From Styela clava (taxonomy: Eukaryota > Chordata > Ascidiacea > Stolidobranchia > Styelidae): a DNA stretch of 64,000 nucleotides. Both the position numbers and the translations under genes were made by a program. Positions 19,352-49,888 of this stretch are shown here, in pieces (the stretch's first letter is position 1; every line of letters starts with the position of its first letter). The notes beneath the pieces are model-generated. The model was not told where the DNA came from and did not search any database. It was given only the letters and a program-made list of their open reading frames with translations. The stretch lies in contig NC_135252.1 in the NCBI RefSeq assembly GCF_964204865.1, forward strand, positions 5,663,383 through 5,727,382. Reading direction: 5' to 3'.

Positions 19352-22300
19352 TCATGATGTTAAGCTAGCTAATCGATCAACTTTGTTGGCTAATCCACTT
19401 GCTTCTAGTTCTTTCATAAAATCTGTTGGTCCGTCTTTGTCAAGAACATTTGAAATTTTTTCCAGGAGTTCCTTGGTCTGTAGTAATATAAATTTGTATT
19501 TATTTCCCATACCGTGCTGGACTCAATTTAAAAAAAAAACGAAAATTGAGTGCATTCATAATGCCAAAGTAACTATCTTAGAACATGCCTTACCCAAAGC
19601 ATTCAGCTATGAGATAGAGTGACCTGACATGGGCAAACTACGGCCCGCGGGCCAAATCCGGCCCGTTGACTAATTCAATCTGACCCGACTGATGCTGCCA
19701 CAACTAAACTAAAACCAAATGTTGATGTTTCAGTTAATAAATAGCTCAAGAAATTTGTTGGAATTGCGATTAAATTTAGTTTTGGCACGAGGCTCATTGT
19801 TTTCCACTTTTGCTTTTGTAACACTGTGAATAAAATTTTGTTCATAAAATGTAACATTTAACGTCACGCTTACATGGCCCGCCAGTCTAGGTGGGCAAAT
19901 TTTTTGGCCCCTGGCCCATAAAACCTTGCCCACCCTGGAGCTAGACCTTAGCAAAGAAATGAACACACAGTCAACATTTTGCAGAAAAGGCAGTATAATC
20001 GATTCAGTATTTTTTTTAAATCTTGTAACATTGCAGTTTTGTTTTACACAGTTTAATGCTATGCTGCTGCCTACCTGCTTATATTCAACTCGTAACTGCT
20101 TAATTTCTTGCTGTCTTTTCCATTGCTTTTTATGCATTGCCTTCTCTATGTCTTTGTACATGTTTTGTCTCCTTTTTTCAACTTGTCTCGCCATTTCATC
20201 ACACTCAGCATCGACCTGGAAAAAAAAATACGTCTCACCATCATTGTTTGATATATAAAGTTACATATGATATGTTTGACTAGAATTACACAATGTACCC
20301 TCTTTTTTAGATCTTCTCCTTTCATTTCTATACTTGACACAACACTTTGAGATTCCAAAATATTGCCACCTAGCGTTTCAATCTTGCTTGTTAAAGCTTT
20401 CGTTGATTGCTTCAACCGACGGCGAATCTCTTTGAATTTTTGTAGAACTTTCAGCGGTGCGATCTAAACGAGGATATTTTAAGATATTTTGTGGTATATA
20501 TGCAAAGCTATCGAACGTGGACTTCTTCCAGCACATTTGACCTTGGAACCTTGGTTAGATGTCAAAGCTTATATATTTACACAGTAGTAATTAAAATTAC
20601 TTTTTGCTATTTGAGTGTTGTTTTAATTATATTGGTTTACGGCACAATTCGCTAACGACTGAGAATTTTTTTTTTCCTCGGCAACCAGATGTATCAATTC
20701 CGTGTGTTTGTCGTAATTTCGTCGTTTGTTTTAATTAGATGTTTAATTCTAAATATACTCAATAACTTTGTGCATTTTTTGTTAGAAATTTGGTACAGTC
20801 GTCGGTAGACTGGCATCCCCCGCTAATCCATTGGTCTAATATATCTTTAGACCATGCTATACATAATATCGACCTATTTGTGTATAAAACTCACCACGTT
20901 CTCTATGTTTTAGATGTTGTTTTAAATCCCACTTATCCGCACGATCAATAACAAATTTTGTAACATTTAAGTATTGATTTACCTTATGGTCTTTATGACT
21001 GTCTTCCAACGCACAAAGTGGACATAAATTGCAAGCACATGTTTCGCACCACATCAACAGTTCCATGTGAAATTGTCGATGACGACTACACTCTGGATAT
21101 CGAGTCTTACTTTCAACTTTGAATCTCACAACTGCCTGAAATTTAACATATTCACTAAATCAGATGATGTACAACTTACTAAACTGATTTTTATCTGTCA
21201 AGTCTGGGTAAATTTCACATTCTCCTTCTTCTGGAGTCATAATTAATGAAAGGGAGATGTCTCTCAACCGGAATCACTGCTAGAATCTTGTATTTTGAGT
21301 CAAAATACAAGATTCTAGCGGTGATTCCGGTATATGTGGATTTATTGCAAACGGATTTATATACTTGATTTACTATCACGCTGTCCTGTATTTATGTATT
21401 TAACTATCATTGATTATCGGCGTCGTGAATTCATTTCGTTTTAATCATGGCAATTACGACTTCTTTCCGTGATATATTTAGAGCAGGTTTACAATAATAC
21501 GGGAATTTAAAGTAAATATAACACGGTATTGGTCTAAATATCTACAGTAAATTTAAAGATGATTGAATTGTTTATTCGACACACTTTTTATAGAATGTTT
21601 GTGACATTGACTAGTTTTAAATGTCAATATGCGATTGAATAAATAAATATATCTATCCTCTTATTATTTCGCTTCATTGGAACTGTTAATAATATTCAAT
21701 ATTATACATATGCTTCTACTTACTTGTTCTAAATTAACGTTCCTGGGTAAGCAATCAACCCCTTCTGGTCCGTATTTAATTATATTTCGACATGTCGGAC
21801 ATATAAACCTGCTTCTTTTCTGAAAAACATAACCATTTTTATAAAGTTAATCAATAGAACATTTGATCAGTCTCGAATGCACAAGAATTTATTCACTTCC
21901 ATATCCAGTGTTATATATACAAGTCCGAGCTTCCCCAACTACTCAAAATTTGTTGCTCGAGAATGTACTTGTGGAAATTTGGTTTTTGTCTAAAATATTC
22001 GAAATGTCATACATGGCAGCAATATCTCGGCAAAATTTGGCCGACTAAATCCATATATTCGGAAAATTTGAATGGTTATACCGGGACTCTTCATATTCTA
22101 TTACTTTATTGTATCGGTGAATAATTCAGAACAGGGGTGGGCAAATTACGTCCCGCGGGCGGGTTTTCATCCGGGCCACTCATGCCAGCTGAAATTATGA
22201 CTGTATATTTTATGAATATTAATTTCCGTTGAAAATACCGATGAAAATAACGTCATAAAATCCCGATTGTTACTTTGTACTTCTCATTATTATATAAACG

Positions 22301-25608: not shown

Positions 25609-27290
25609 CAGAGGTGGCCAACCTTTCACATACCATGCGCCACGTTTTAAACATAATGTTTCAGATGCGCCGTAAATCTCTTGTATACCCACGCCTAATG
25701 TCCGCTTCTTGTTGAAATTATAAAATTTATCATACACACACATATATACACACGTATATGTAGTTTTTACAATTTACAACTTCACATGAATAGAAATTAA
25801 GCAAGGAAGTATAATAAATAGAACTGATCAATTTTATTTAAGTACCGCCTTTATGAGACTTTTGCTGCTGTTTTACTTTCGCCAGTTTTTTTATTCTTGG
25901 AGTTAAGTTTGTTACTGAGAGGAGCAGTGCATTCTTCAAATTTGAATGTAAGTCTTGACCTCGCTTTGCTTTTAATTAGTTTCATGGCAGAAAATGTTTG
26001 TTCACATCTATATGTCGTTCCGAAACGACATATAAAACCCTGGGCAAATTTTCTCAGTTCTGGAAAATTTTCACGAGGTAACGTTTGCCAGAACTTGATC
26101 ATGTCAGATGCACTTGGGACTGAAGAATGCTCATCAAATTTAATTTTCAATGATGGATGAGTTTTCAAGTCAATTAGTTCCAATTGTATATTGCTTGGCA
26201 TCTTCATTATGTTTAGTTCACTAAGTGAAAATAGGTTTATAAAAGCAAGTATAGAGTCTTCTTCTTTTGAAATATCATGAAAACGACTTGAATGAATGAA
26301 TATAGTATAACGTAAGTAAGTAAGTAATGAATGAATATATAGTATATATATATAGTTAACTCAATGAAAATTCTCGTATCCACGCAAAAATTCGAGCAAT
26401 TTACGATAAACAGATTACGATTGATTACGAAACAGGGAACCATTGTGACGCCATGCTTCAAGTAAAAACTACAGCCTTCCTGAAAGTAGGAGAAAAACGT
26501 ATTCTGTCTTATGAGCATTACGCAATAAAGCTGTTTTTACCAACGAAGAGAAAAAGGTACGAATAAGAAGTAAAGTTAGGCGTAATATTGTGACAACAGG
26601 CCTTTAGTATCAATATCTACTCTACTCTACCCTCGATTCTAATTGGCCTTTGTTAATCAGCTGTTTGGCCTAGCGTCGCGTGATTTTACTCCAGGCTTCT
26701 TCAAAATTAGTACTTGCGTCACAGCAAGCGATTTTACGCTTCGCTTTTGTTGACAACGGTCATTTGAAGTTTGGATGTAAAGGTGGTATTTAAGGGTCAT
26801 TTTCAGCATGTTGTGGGTGATTTATAATAAACTTTTTAGGCTTGGGCAATTCAACTGGTTGTTCAATAGTTATTGGGAGATATTTGGGAAGTCTGGGCAA
26901 TGGAAAATCCATGTTTCAAGCTGATAAATGACGATTTTCTATTTTTCCAGAAGTTCTGAACTTTTTACTCCAGTAGGGAAAAAATAGTAAATTTTACTAA
27001 TTTTTGCTAAAAGTCTAGAATGAATGTCATAAAGTCCGTCCAAAAGCTAACGTCGATAATCGCCTGTTGTTCCTAATTCCAACAAGCCGTAAGTGGACGA
27101 CGTGGAGTAAGGAGAATAGATTTTAGGTACAATCAAAAGTCACCATGTAAATCGCAAAAAAACGGCTTGGCGAGGAGAAGCCGAGTGCAATTAACAATTT
27201 TGGCATGAAAAGGGTTAAAGATGCAATGCGCCACCTCTAATCATGCAATGCGCCACGTTTGGCGCATGCGCCATAGGTTGGCCACCCCTG
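25609..27290 (-). mobile_element. hAT deletion derivative with terminal repeats and 8-bp target duplication
   Basis: The left end is CAGAGGTGGCCAACCT and the right end, on the other strand, is CAGGGGTGGCCAACCT (15 of 16 identical). The flanking octamers GTTCACAT (25601-25608) and GTTTACAT (27291-27298) match at seven of eight positions, the expected hAT duplication. Subterminal ATGCGCCACGTTT motifs occur near both ends. The element is 1682 bp and contains only the C-terminal part of a transposase, so most of the gene has been lost. Confidence 0.85.
25851..26207 (-). pseudogene. hAT transposase C-terminal fragment (dimerisation region)
   Basis: A 118-codon frame inside the hAT element. It carries the characteristic hAT C-terminal block: a FWQTLPRENFPELRKFAQ stretch, then FGTTYRCEQTFSAMKLIKS and KARSRLT. 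This is the hATC dimerisation region seen in transposases and in domesticated relatives such as GTF2IRD2, EPM2AIP1 and FAM200 proteins. The DDE catalytic core and BED finger expected upstream are absent within the element's borders, so it cannot be an active transposase. Confidence 0.8.
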
Positions 27291-35700: not shown

Positions 35701-38700
35701 TTATTATCTTCATGGTCGGGAGTAGGGGAACTTGCATCAAGAAGCAAAGCACGTTCTAATTCTTCAGCACCCTTATCTAAATTGAAGAATAGAATATTTA
35801 ATAGCAGAGTAGAGTTACAAAAATTTAAACCAGGCTTTAGTGTATATATAAAAATTAATTCGTAAACCAGAAATAACATAAAACAACACAATCCTAGCTC
35901 TCAGTTTTTAAAATTTAACTTGGTCTATATACGGATTTTTATATAAGTGAAACGCATGCTCAATAAGTATGCATTTTATAGAAAAAGCATATCAAGATAG
36001 CATTTTTACTAGTATCAAAAGATAGCAAAAACTTGATATTGATATCTTATAGAAAAGAAAGATTGTAATAAGATCATTGATCATACGTGACACAAGTCTA
36101 CATCACACTCACCAGTGGTAAAAAAATCAAAATCTTGAGGATCTTCTGGTAATTTATCGAAAACACCATTTAACATTATTTCATGACCTGCAAAAACAAT
36201 ATTTAGACAATATTTTATACTAACTCAGAATGTACCATCATTTTAATGACAAGGTGAAATACTCTATAATTTAATAAAAGTGATCAGCCTACAGTATTTT
36301 CATAACATTGCTTCAGTAATAACGAATTAATAAGCGATTCATACCAGTCAAATAATGCAAATCCTCTTCGCTTGTGTCGGATGGTTTGGTATCATCCAAA
36401 TCCGAAACATCAATGTTAGTGAGTAATCCCTTATCGCAAAGTTTTGAGGCTTCAATTCTCATGTCTGTTACTATGGCTGATGATGCTTTCAAAGGTGAAG
36501 AATCAGTCTGTAATATATGGTCAATTTACAATATTATTACTCATATTCAGGGGTCAAAGGTTAACAAAACTCCATATATATAGTCTCTTATAATTCATTA
36601 TTACAGTGAGCGGGAGAATTCATCTCTGAAAATTCATTAGGGTAACAACATACTTTTTAGAAACTTTTAACAATTACAATTATCGAATAACAATTTTTTT
36701 TATTTCTGTGCCTATTTGAAAACTTATGTAGATATAATATACTATACGTTTTTTTATTTTAAGATTCTAAATAATTTGTTTTAACAGTTGCTTAAATGAT
36801 CGTTAACATTTACTTCATTAACTTTGTAATACGACTTATGATAAAAAGATAATACGTTGTTCAGTTTCGATATACAAACATAAATAATAACTACAAAATA
36901 AGCAAGAAATTCAAATACATATATTGGTATATTGACACAATGATTATAGACCTGGTTTATTTCCTTTGATGAGGAAATTTGCTTTTGTGCTTGATCCTGA
37001 ACAAGCTCTTGACTTTCATTGTCTTCAATTTTTCTCTTTTTCTTCTTTTTATGCTTCTTAGTCAATGGTAACAATTTTGTCCGTTTTCTTACTTTTTTAA
37101 CCTTCGGAAATGAAATAGGCATATAAATACAAACTGTTGCTAATAACACGCAACAAAAACGATAAACATGGATGTATAGTATTTGCATCCTTTTACACTG
37201 TACTAGAATTATCATTGCATAGCAGACACAGGATTTTAATATCTAGAATCAATGCACTTGTTGTCACTCAGACTGCAAAATTTTACATTGTAAGGTTCTA
37301 CATCAGGATAGTTGATTTCTAATATCTTTAGGACATCATTGGATTTATTAAAAAAAATAACACAGTTATACAGGTAGACCCAAAGCCATGAACAATATAC
37401 CTATAAAGGACTCCTGTGGTGTGTGTACCAGGTTAGGTTTCCATGATAATTTCATTCCAATTTTAGTTCTATTACGAGTTTGGGACTGTCTGTGTTGGCC
37501 AAGTGAATATACCCCCTGCCCATAGGTTTCAGTCCCTTTACACAACTTGATGTAAAGAAGGCGAACAAAATTAGTTACCCTCATTATGGTACACATACTT
37601 CTGAAGCGCCAAAAATACAATATAAATTTACCAATATCAAAGGTTCAGGAACAATATCAGCTGTTGGTTGCATGCTCTGATTTAATTTATACAGACATTG
37701 GCTCGGACAATGCCATATGTGCTCTTTGCAATACAGTGCATATGGTAAAGCAGGTGCATCGCAACACAGTGCATTGTTAACAGAAAGATGGCATCGTTTT
37801 CTTTTCTTGATTGCAGAAGATTGTGTTCTGCACAAATGAGAAAAAAATTAAAATGCATAATTTTGCAAATTGTTTTCATATCACAAGTCCGACCAAAGGT
37901 TATGTAGATGATTTAAAATTTCCTTCAAAACAAAATTACTCTTCTACGATATCTAATTTACAGAAAAGTAAGCATACATATTAGCAGCATCAAATTGCAA
38001 AGTGGACTTTAAGTATTTTCCAGTCATATTTGCATCATCTTTGTAAGCATCCATCACAAGTTCAAGCTCTCTTTTATCTCTGCATAACTGTTCTTCTAAT
38101 TTCTTATATTTATCTCTCAACTGTTGAGTGTGAATTGTGTAACAAATCTCCTCTTCATCATTCCTGTGGATATCAATAAGTAAATACAATTTGCAATAAT
38201 GTAAAATTGATTCTAAAAAGGTAAGAAAACAAGGCTTAGTGAAACTGAATAGCTACATTTGAAACAAGGGATTAACCCTTCACTTGCTTCTATAGAATAT
38301 GATTTAACAGTTTCTAATTATCATGCCTGTTATTGATAGCCTCTATAAACTTGAATACCTTTCTTACAGACACAGATACTTCTAATATATATTTGGCAGA
38401 AACTAATTATGCAGCGATTGCTAGAGATGTTGTTATTAACATTCTTTATATGTCAAATAATGAGCTACATGAAAATTCTATAGTTAAGAGATTCCATAGT
38501 TCAGTCCAATTCCGAAATATGATGAAGTTAACATTAAAAATTGATTGCGTTTATTTTAGACTGGGAATTTCTATATGGAGCATATATTATTAATGTGAAA
38601 CCAAATTAAAAAAAAAACGAACTGCACAGAAATTACCGACAATACTAAGGCATTGTACTTGTCACCTCATATTTCATAGAATGAATCGTTTTGTGCGAAG

Positions 38701-44414: not shown

Positions 44415-44865
44415 AGGTCTCATGTAGTTTCGTACCTAACATACTTCTAGTGGGTGTACCATGACAATTTTTTCATGTATCAATCCTAACCCCCACCTGA
44501 CTACACCATCCAAAAATTACATCAACACGACGTCACAGTAACGTAATAGAGCCCTTCAAACTATACGAACTGCCATCCAAGACGCGCAAACGAGCACCCG
44601 AAATCGAACAGTTATGTCTCTCGTTTTTTCGTCGCAACGATTCCAATAGGAGAGAGATCGATAATGTCAGTCAGTTCCTTATCGTCGGCGCCAATGCCAT
44701 TTCGGGCGATTATACGTATATTTGGCAAGCTCTATGAAGTGATTGTGATGTCGTAGTGACATAATTTTTGGATGGTGTAGTCAGATGGGGTTAGGATTGA
44801 CATATCAAAAAATTGTTATGCTACGCCCACTAGAAGTACGTTAGGTACGAAACTACAAGAGACCC
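44415..44865. mobile_element. 451-bp foldback (long terminal inverted repeat) element
   Basis: The left arm starts AGGTCTCATGTAGTTTCG and the right arm reads back as GGGTCTCTTGTAGTTTCG. The arms stay similar for roughly 110 bp and more weakly for another 40, passing through CTACACCATCCAAAAATTA on one strand. The octamer TATAATTT lies immediately outside both ends (44407-44414 and 44866-44873). No transposase frame is present. The 8-bp duplication fits hAT, Merlin or P-like elements; the terminal sequence does not decide which. Confidence 0.75.
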
Positions 44866-44873
44866 TATAATTT

Positions 44874-45075
44874 GGGTCTAGTGTAGTTTCGTACCTCAAG
44901 TATTTCTAGTGGATCGTAGGTATACTTTGGCAAGCTCTATGAAGTGATTGTGTGTGATGTCATTGTGACATAATTTTTGGATGGTGTAGTCAGGTGGGGG
45001 TTACGATTGACATGTACAAAAATCGTTATGCTACGCCCATTAGACAGTTAGAAGTAAGAAACTACACAGAGACCC
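44874..45075. mobile_element. 202-bp second copy of the foldback element, in tandem
   Basis: It begins GGGTCTAGTGTAGTTTCG directly after the TATAATTT that closes the first copy and ends GAGACCC directly before a third TATAATTT (45076-45083). The right arm is largely intact, but the left arm continues for only about 60 bp before joining right-arm sequence, so the middle has been deleted. Confidence 0.7.
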
Positions 45076-45807: not shown

Positions 45808-48510
45808 GAGCGCCTTTTCGCGGCCGTTTCACATAGCGTAACATACAACCGCCGTTGTAAGTAGAGCAATACGCGCGGCAGCACGACAAGGGTTTTTGAC
45901 AGTGCATTTGAGGTGTGAAGTTGCAAAAAGGCTATTAAATCTGTATTAAAATTTTCCTTATAATGAGTTTTGCTAAAATGCGACATAAATGTTCCTTTGA
46001 ACCCCAGGTGCATGGTATGGTGATTTAATTTCTCTTCCCAAAACGGTCACATACAACAGATTCACGGCCCAAATTCCATATCCAAAGTGAGGATGAAGTC
46101 GTCGAGAGAAATTGGTTACGCCATCAACTGCTTTTTTCTGGTTCACGACAGTTCGTTCCATGGATTTTTTTTGAAACGTGCTGATTTATTTCATAGCCTC
46201 ATGTAAGTTATCGAAACATTTTCATACCTTATTGTGAGCTGGCCCCGTATGCGATATGGTTACAAAAAGTAAGCCTTTGCGACAGACAACGGGCGTAAAC
46301 CGAAGTGTTGCAATACAGTTGGACTTGCAAAAGATTATATTAAAGTTTTGGATGCTGAAATGAGTGTGAGCAACCACGGTTTTCTCAAGTGCAGGCCTTG
46401 GGAGGGGGGGGGGGTCCTGAATCAGAATTGCGCTGGAGAGAATTGGTCAATTCGCGAAAAAAGATTATATGACGTTGCGAAGTTATTAAATGCATTATTG
46501 TGTTAAACACCTTTTTCTTCAATCCTCGTTAGTACAAAACAGCTGATTTCACGGTGAAAACACACAGGCGTAAACACGATTGTTGTAAGCCAGCGGATGA
46601 ATATGTATTTGCGTCGCAACCAATCGTGACCGTTTCTCATTTATGACGTACATTTTCGCTGCAGCGAGGAGTTCAGTAGCAGCTGTTCTAAAAATAAATC
46701 CATCCACAGAGAAATGTGATGAGGGCGACTTGCATGTTATGGCGGAGTAGCCGTTACTATGCGTGGAATTAACAACGCCTTTCGGAATACCAGAGTGCGT
46801 TGTTTCATGATTAATTCACCGGTGAAGAATACAATCAGCCTATCATTATTTTTCATCAAAGCCGCCCAGCCTCAACAAATAGATAAGTTCAAATATATTA
46901 AGTAGACTTTCTTCACATTGCTCACCAATATCACGTAAACGGTATTTGTGTAACATTTTAAAATAATGTCCTCCCAGAAGTCGAAACTCACCTCTGCCGG
47001 TAACTAGCGAAACGCCTCTCTTGTTTAACTTTTTGCATCTGACTAAAAATGTAGGAATGAAACGCTTCAATCTTCAACTCCATAACTAATAGGCAAAGCC
47101 CACCAGTCATACCCTACGTACGTCTGAACTATTGCCTCGGCATCATTGGTTGAAACGTACTTCGTTCGACGTAAAGAAAAAACGGACGAAGATCACCGTT
47201 GCATATGATTGATTGGCTGTATCGTACATACTGCAACTCTTTCTTATAGCAATTCAATAACGTAGTGTGTGTGGCTTTATCTTATGATTTGAATAAAATG
47301 AAGTATGGGAAGAGACCTTTTTTCGTTTGCAATGAGAGAGGAGATGAAGAAGTAGGGAAGATACACGTGTCGATAGGCGTAGTAATTTGGCCATCGCGTA
47401 GAGTGATTCCGCTCTCCGAATGTTTTGACGAGTTAAAAAACTCGGGGGTGTTTCTAGACAGTCTTTTCACTGCGATATGCCTCCGCGATCACGTGGTTTA
47501 AAGTAGCCTTTGCTTAGCCTTTTTTCGCGCTTTATGTCATGATTATCCACATTTGGCACCCGAGCTTAATAATTTCTAATATAGGTCAACTGTATGAATG
47601 ACCAGAAAGAAAAAAATTATACACTTACTCCAAGAGTAGTTTGGTTGTGAAAAACAAGACTCAGCTTCCCTGTCTTGGACTCAATACATCGGCATCTAGA
47701 ATTTTTGAATGCCGGTTCATAACTGACAAATGCAGAAGCATATTCGACAGCTCTAATAGATCACGATTGTTACATACAATCTGACCAATTCCGATATCAA
47801 CGATTAGTGTCACATTTCATATATATAGTTTTCACCCATTCAAGGTCCAACCGTATATCAATCTCATTTTTTCATCGCTTTCACGTATGTATATGATCGA
47901 GTTGATAGTTATTAGCAATACCTTTCGAGCGCTGCCGCCATTGCTAGACCACTCGTTTTGGATAATGACTGGCTCGAATTCATCACGTGATGCGTAGTAA
48001 GTGACATTTTCTCTCGTAAACGTCACCATCCAATAGTATTCCAGTGATGTCGTTAGCATTTGTTGTCAATTTGCCCGTGGCTAGTCTTGCATGTTCGATT
48101 CCCAACTTTGACGTTAGATCGCGCATATTTCCCTGATTGAGGCCAAGTACTTCCAAATTTTCACAAGCTTTGTCCTATTATACTGCTTATCATTACAGAT
48201 CCACAAGGTTAGATAATTCTGATTATTTGCATGATTTGGAGAAATGTATGTATGTTTATTCGTCTTGTAATAGTGAAAAGTATAAATAAATTGACAATTA
48301 ATAATATTTGAGATGGGATGCATGCACAAGACCTACTGGCCTAAAACACAAATGTGTGGCGTTAGATTGAATAGTATAATATGGTCCCTTATACAGACAG
48401 TTGTGAAAGTGGGGCAATGGGTTGGTGTGGTGAAAGTGGTCAGGGAGAAGTATACAAAACTGTTTATACATGGGAGTTTATAAGACAGGGCAATATATAT
48501 AAGTAGGGAC

Positions 48511-48620
48511 GGACCTCCTGAAGTATGCGCACCAAGATGGCGCACAACCTGAACTCAGGTTGTGTACCAGGTTATGGTTCAGGTTGTGCGACATCTTGGT
48601 GCGCATACTTCAGGAGTACC
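48511..48620. mobile_element. 110-bp palindromic MITE with perfect 8-bp target duplication
   Basis: The arms at 48515-48553 and 48577-48616 are inverted copies (CTCCTGAAGTATGCGCACCA on the left), separated by about 23 bp. Outside the termini the octamer GTAGGGAC is present exactly on both sides (48503-48510 and 48621-48628). The terminal sequence on the other strand is GGTACTCCTGAAGTATGCGC. It has no coding capacity. The perfect duplication and well-matched arms indicate a recent insertion. Confidence 0.85.
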
Positions 48621-49888
48621 GTAGGGACAACACAACACCAAATATACATAACGATGAAATTAAAATTTTGGCGTAAATGCAGCACCCTTGAGTGGTGATA
48701 CCATATAATATGAATGGGCGAAGTATTGTAATACTTATGCTATAATCAGTTTTATTTATTTTGTCTTAAACATTTATTTTATCGTCTATTATGCTGATTG
48801 TGGAATCGAAATGAACTTATACTATCCTCCACCCGACAAGACCGTTGAACGGATGCTGCACCCTGCTATATGGACCTATAGCGCCGATATCGGAAACGCG
48901 AAGCAATATTTTTTAAGCACGTGTCCATTGAAATAAATATAATGGCCCGTACTCATCCTTTACTCGATAGCTTATATCCCTGTTTTGCTGTTTAACAGAA
49001 TTGGACTCCAATTGTCAAACCAAACAAAGAGAGAGATCTCATTAATGACCTTTCATTTCAGTCACCCCGCTGTTAATTAATTAAGAATTCGCTGATTTTA
49101 TTGATTATTTAAAATGCGTAACTCCCAAACTTTTCCACTGATTGTTTAAATATGCATGCAACTGCATTTTTTGCTATAGGATCATAGGTGAACTATGTAT
49201 GTCTGAAGAAGTCTGACCTTGGTGAGACGGAACGTATATACGGAAATATATTTGTGTTAGTGTGCAGCAAGACTCTTGAATCACTCAGTACAGTAGCTAT
49301 GTTGTATTTTTTCTCAAGGGATGAATTATCTGTGAAAATATGTCGCAAAATCATTGATTTAAACATTTGTAATCTTCGTTGTGAATTGTCTCGGAAAATC
49401 TATATTCTTCTCATTTTGTACGCTCCCAGAATAGGTTGCTATCATAATTGGGCGTAATTTCATTGATTTTAGAGTATTTGGAACTCCATATCCAAATTTT
49501 TAAAAATTATTTTCTCATAAAATATTAGAGATTGATAATTATTCGCATTTGGTAAATATTTGAATGCATCAAATAATGTAGTTTTAGGTTCACAGCATTG
49601 CCTATGGAACTGTTAATTATTAAATGAGACGGTTCCATTTCATTTGAATCCACGAACCCATGACAATTGCACCTGCATACTATTGCACATATGGACTTTT
49701 TGTTTTACGGATATTTGAACCCATACTAACCTTAACCCATGGGTTTTAGCACCCGCACATAGATTGAACCCGCGGATATACACATGGGTTCAAATGTACG
49801 GTTACCAAATGAGACTGACTCCAACAATATTCATAGCATGTTTACTTTTATTGGACACGTAGTGGACATAACGATCGTTTCAATATTA

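Follow-up and report, generated by a model that had tools for sequence, protein, structure and literature searches.

A 110-bp palindrome flanked by an exact 8-bp duplication in Styela clava: very probably a MITE, more likely than not of Merlin type

Elements of the Merlin superfamily carry terminal inverted repeats (TIRs) of 24–462 bp with a conserved terminal 5′-GG and are flanked by target site duplications (TSDs) of 8 or 9 bp; the new families in the cited part of that work also begin with GG, and a Merlin from Ciona intestinalis is present in its published alignment (PMC8101967). Merlin-like MITEs of Nosema bombycis, with 8-bp TSDs and TIRs of 24–34 bp, were assigned by TIR and TSD (PMC4405373), while insect MITEs have been assigned to 16 superfamilies including Merlin, with a mean length of ~383 bp given for Merlin MITEs (PMC5199201). 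ISApl4, a bacterial relative belonging to the IS1016 group of IS1595, has ends GGGGCTGTACTAGA, which begin with GG, and generates 8-bp repeats, A/T-rich ones being preferred (PMC12561309). MITE size in general is given as 80–500 bp (PMC2874221), and a MITE of Ciona intestinalis is named as Cimi-1 (PMC12865960). P elements, another 8-bp superfamily, have TIRs of 31 bp in Drosophila (PMC7776569) and 27–31 bp in Anopheles (PMC1562414).

The window, i.e. the whole stretch of 64,000 nucleotides of Styela clava DNA analysed here (35.4% GC; all coordinates refer to it), contains a 110-bp palindrome at 48511–48620. The left arm (48511–48554, + strand; starts GGACCTCCTGAAG) and the right arm (48577–48620, − strand; GGTACTCCTGAAGTATGCGC when read from its outer end) are each 44 nt long, complementary at 41/44 positions and separated by a 22-nt centre, or loop (48555–48576, + strand). 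Arm mismatches are at positions 3, 4 and 30, so that the two termini (GGACC on the left, GGTAC on the right) differ at positions 3–4, and beyond the first four bases the inner arms (48515–48554 and 48577–48616) match at 39/40 positions, the longest exact block being 25 nt. Both ends of the palindrome are directly adjoined by the octamer GTAGGGAC (48503–48510 and 48621–48628, both + strand; 8/8 identical), with no ninth base matching. Over end shifts no larger than 6 bases and repeats 6–12 bases long, this was the only exact 8-bp register, shorter registers being parts of it. The inverted-repeat search itself gives arms of 46 nt, because two bases of each duplication, which runs from GT to AC, are counted in. 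The near-perfect palindromic arms and the perfect 8-bp duplication described in an earlier note on this DNA are both confirmed.

Among 20 dinucleotide shuffles, none contained an exact inverted repeat longer than 14 nt whose partner lay within 600 bp, and those that reached 14 nt numbered zero to two per shuffle. A scan of the whole window for an octamer duplication together with matched termini (element of 60–900 bp, octamer made up of three or more kinds of base, termini sharing their first two bases and matched at 11/14 or better) returned one match, which is the 110-bp element (12/14). Of 30 shuffles scanned in the same way, 27 contained no match and each of the other three had a single match, at 11/14.

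The small size of the element, its long inverted ends, the perfect octamer duplication in a single register and the lack of coding capacity together point to a MITE, i.e. a non-autonomous cut-and-paste DNA transposon, whatever its superfamily, with a probability of about 0.93. At 110 bp the element is too short to encode a transposase, and four of the five overlapping stop-to-stop open reading frames (orfs) of at least 45 aa have no Pfam match above cut-off, one match being sub-threshold (E 0.056); the fifth (48613–48765), which overlaps by 8 bases, was left out of this search. The element would have inserted once at GTAGGGAC, a movement that would have duplicated the octamer. A DDE transposase, encoded by some longer relative at another genomic site and acting in trans, would recognise the termini (GGTACTCCTGAAGTATG...), excise the element and join it to the target at strand positions 8 bp apart, and repair of the 8-bp stagger would then produce the target duplication. 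The anatomy supports the earlier reading of the locus as a MITE with an 8-bp TSD, but the accompanying suggestion that the family was recently active is not established, as a single copy gives no date: its octamer is intact, and its three arm mismatches may predate insertion. The CpG level of the element (4 in 110 bp; observed/expected 0.53, vs 0.95 window-wide) is equally uninformative as a hint of age.

Within the window, the only matches to CTCCTGAAGTATGCGC with up to three mismatches were at either end of the palindrome itself, and no close second copy of the element was seen. In viral contigs, neither the TIR pattern nor the inner-arm pattern had any match (0 each), while two matches to the loop pattern, with surroundings unlike the element by eye, were rejected as chance. 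In genome contigs the TIR pattern was found in nine stretches, all prokaryotic, in which matches to the 19-nt end extended over at most 22 nt; these were also rejected, since a 19-base pattern with two Y should match exactly ~7 times by chance alone in 257 billion bases, both strands counted. Searches of literature text with pieces of the element's ends gave papers unrelated by title, and a paper on coral MITEs (PMC2872659) is, in its cited part, not relevant to the element.

The window contains other inverted repeats. In a nested arrangement at 44423–45003, TGTAGTTTCGTACCTAAC (44423–44440) pairs with 44840–44857 and TAACCCCCACCTGACTACACCAT (44487–44509) pairs with 44981–45003; by eye, this is followed in tandem by a further, incomplete copy, and the whole looks like a repeat element with a truncated neighbour. 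A short palindrome at 21279–21319 has exact 20-nt arms with 1 nt between them.

A segment of 203 bp at 37408–37610 (+ strand) is bounded by what appear to be diverged versions of the ends of the 110-bp element, matching the GGTACTCC end at 17/22 positions on the left and 17/23 on the right. When the window, less 48480–48640, was scanned with the 23-nt end and with the same end shortened by one base, the two best matches were those at 37408 (17/22, one base deleted) and 37588 (17/23), which are in inverted order and 180 bp apart. Such an end pair with scores of at least 17 was found in 0/100 shuffles, and pairs of at least 16 and at least 15 were each found in 1/100. In addition, 48561–48580, comprising part of the loop and four right-arm bases, matches 37422–37441 at 18/20 positions (E 0.018 within the window). 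No octamer duplication directly adjoins the GG ends of this segment. The best octamer repeat around it among 14 by 14 end positions, the exact ACAATATA (37392–37399 and 37617–37624), lies 8 and 6 bp outside those ends, which, if moved out to the octamer copies, show little inverted match, and it may be a chance match in AT-rich DNA. On this sequence resemblance, the segment is likely, although weakly and not certainly, a distant relative of the 110-bp element. The claim in the earlier note that the termini recur here has moderate support from the paired, inverted end matches, which the shuffles did not reproduce, but the ends are diverged and lack an adjoining octamer; the view that the element belongs to a family gains moderate support from these ends, but not from any close second copy in the window. 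The segment may resemble Cimi-1. Literature text searched with pieces of it gave no match.

By analogy with published features, Merlin is the favoured but unproven superfamily for the transposase that would have moved the element, at slightly better than even odds. Both termini begin with GG, the TSD is exactly 8 bp and the TIRs, at 44 nt, lie within the Merlin range. The earlier note had left the superfamily open while setting hAT aside, which was a fair assessment, and Merlin is a published superfamily that matches GG ends combined with a duplication of 8–9 bp. The Merlin terminal motif is GGNRM, which fits the right end (GGTAC) and misfits the left end (GGACC) at the fourth base; GGNRM together with Merlin was not found among the literature matches listed. 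Among the 521 orfs of the window (stop to stop, minimum 45 aa), 20 stretches were scanned with Pfam and none contained a DDE_Tnp_IS1595 domain. A single duplication cannot tell Merlin from other superfamilies with 8-bp TSDs, such as hAT and P.

Less probable, although still a serious competitor, is movement of the MITE by a P (THAP9-like) element, a hAT element with unusual ends, a Mutator-like element or an undescribed superfamily. hAT elements usually end in CAG or TAG and their target pattern is nTnnnnAn, while the P target is the palindromic GTCCGGAC; GTAGGGAC fits the hAT pattern and agrees with the P target at 6/8 positions. The GG ends differ both from the usual hAT ends and from those of Drosophila P elements. 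TSDs of 8 bp, as found here, are described for hAT (PMC2874221) as well as for P elements and P-MITEs (PMC1562414; PMC7776569), but hAT TIRs are given as 5–27 bp (PMC2874221), vs the 44-nt arms of this element. The only hAT evidence that the analysis gave for the window is orf 25854–26360 (− strand), which encodes the C-terminal dimerisation domain of hAT proteins (PF05699 in Pfam; E 1.1e-05). This orf is itself likely a hAT transposase remnant or a domesticated gene; together with the GC content it gives the window a eukaryotic look. Comparison of two orfs with PDB yielded nothing of use. It is highly improbable that the element represents an undescribed MITE family with GG ends and 8-bp duplications, moved by a transposase that is neither Merlin, hAT nor P, of which 37408–37610 would be an old branch.

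Outside the transposon readings, a hairpin RNA gene or regulatory palindrome has very little likelihood. As RNA the element would fold very strongly (−79.2 kcal/mol, z −13.8; 0/200 shuffles equally good), but long-armed MITEs fold in this way by construction, an exact octamer adjoining both ends is not expected for a hairpin gene, and the window contains no Rfam match at or above the gathering score of the family; the hairpin gene was rejected on these three grounds. Least probable of all is that the palindrome arose by chance or is a false foldback introduced in assembly, since, although only one copy is in hand, arms that differ at 3/44 positions and a directly adjoining octamer are not expected from a foldback artefact, and the shuffles fall short of the element in both the inverted-repeat and the octamer scans.

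The 110-bp element, read as a MITE, is a well-preserved case of a common genome parasite in which both ends and target are clear. As such the finding is an ordinary one, which would gain in interest only if a live source were discovered. If the genome contains a live Merlin source, the element would offer a compact test substrate for end recognition by its transposase; otherwise it is a matter of routine repeat annotation.

Compared with the known systems, the element shares short length, bounding TIRs and an 8-bp TSD with the P-MITEs of Anopheles gambiae (PMC1562414), to which it is likened by description, although TIRs there are 27–31 bp and P-derived ends have been demonstrated. Two differences count against Merlin: insect Merlin MITEs, as summarised in the cited part of that survey, average ~383 bp vs 110 bp here, and ISApl4, as described in the cited passage, favours A/T-rich octamers, whereas GTAGGGAC is not A/T-rich. 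The Merlin-like MITEs of Nosema bombycis, again likened by description, are similar in their 8-bp TSD and in having TIRs of at least 24 bp, although these are 24–34 bp long there vs 44 nt here. With Merlin/IS1016 elements, by published criteria rather than by a Merlin sequence, the 110-bp element agrees in its GG termini, in the range of its TIR length and in its 8-bp TSD.
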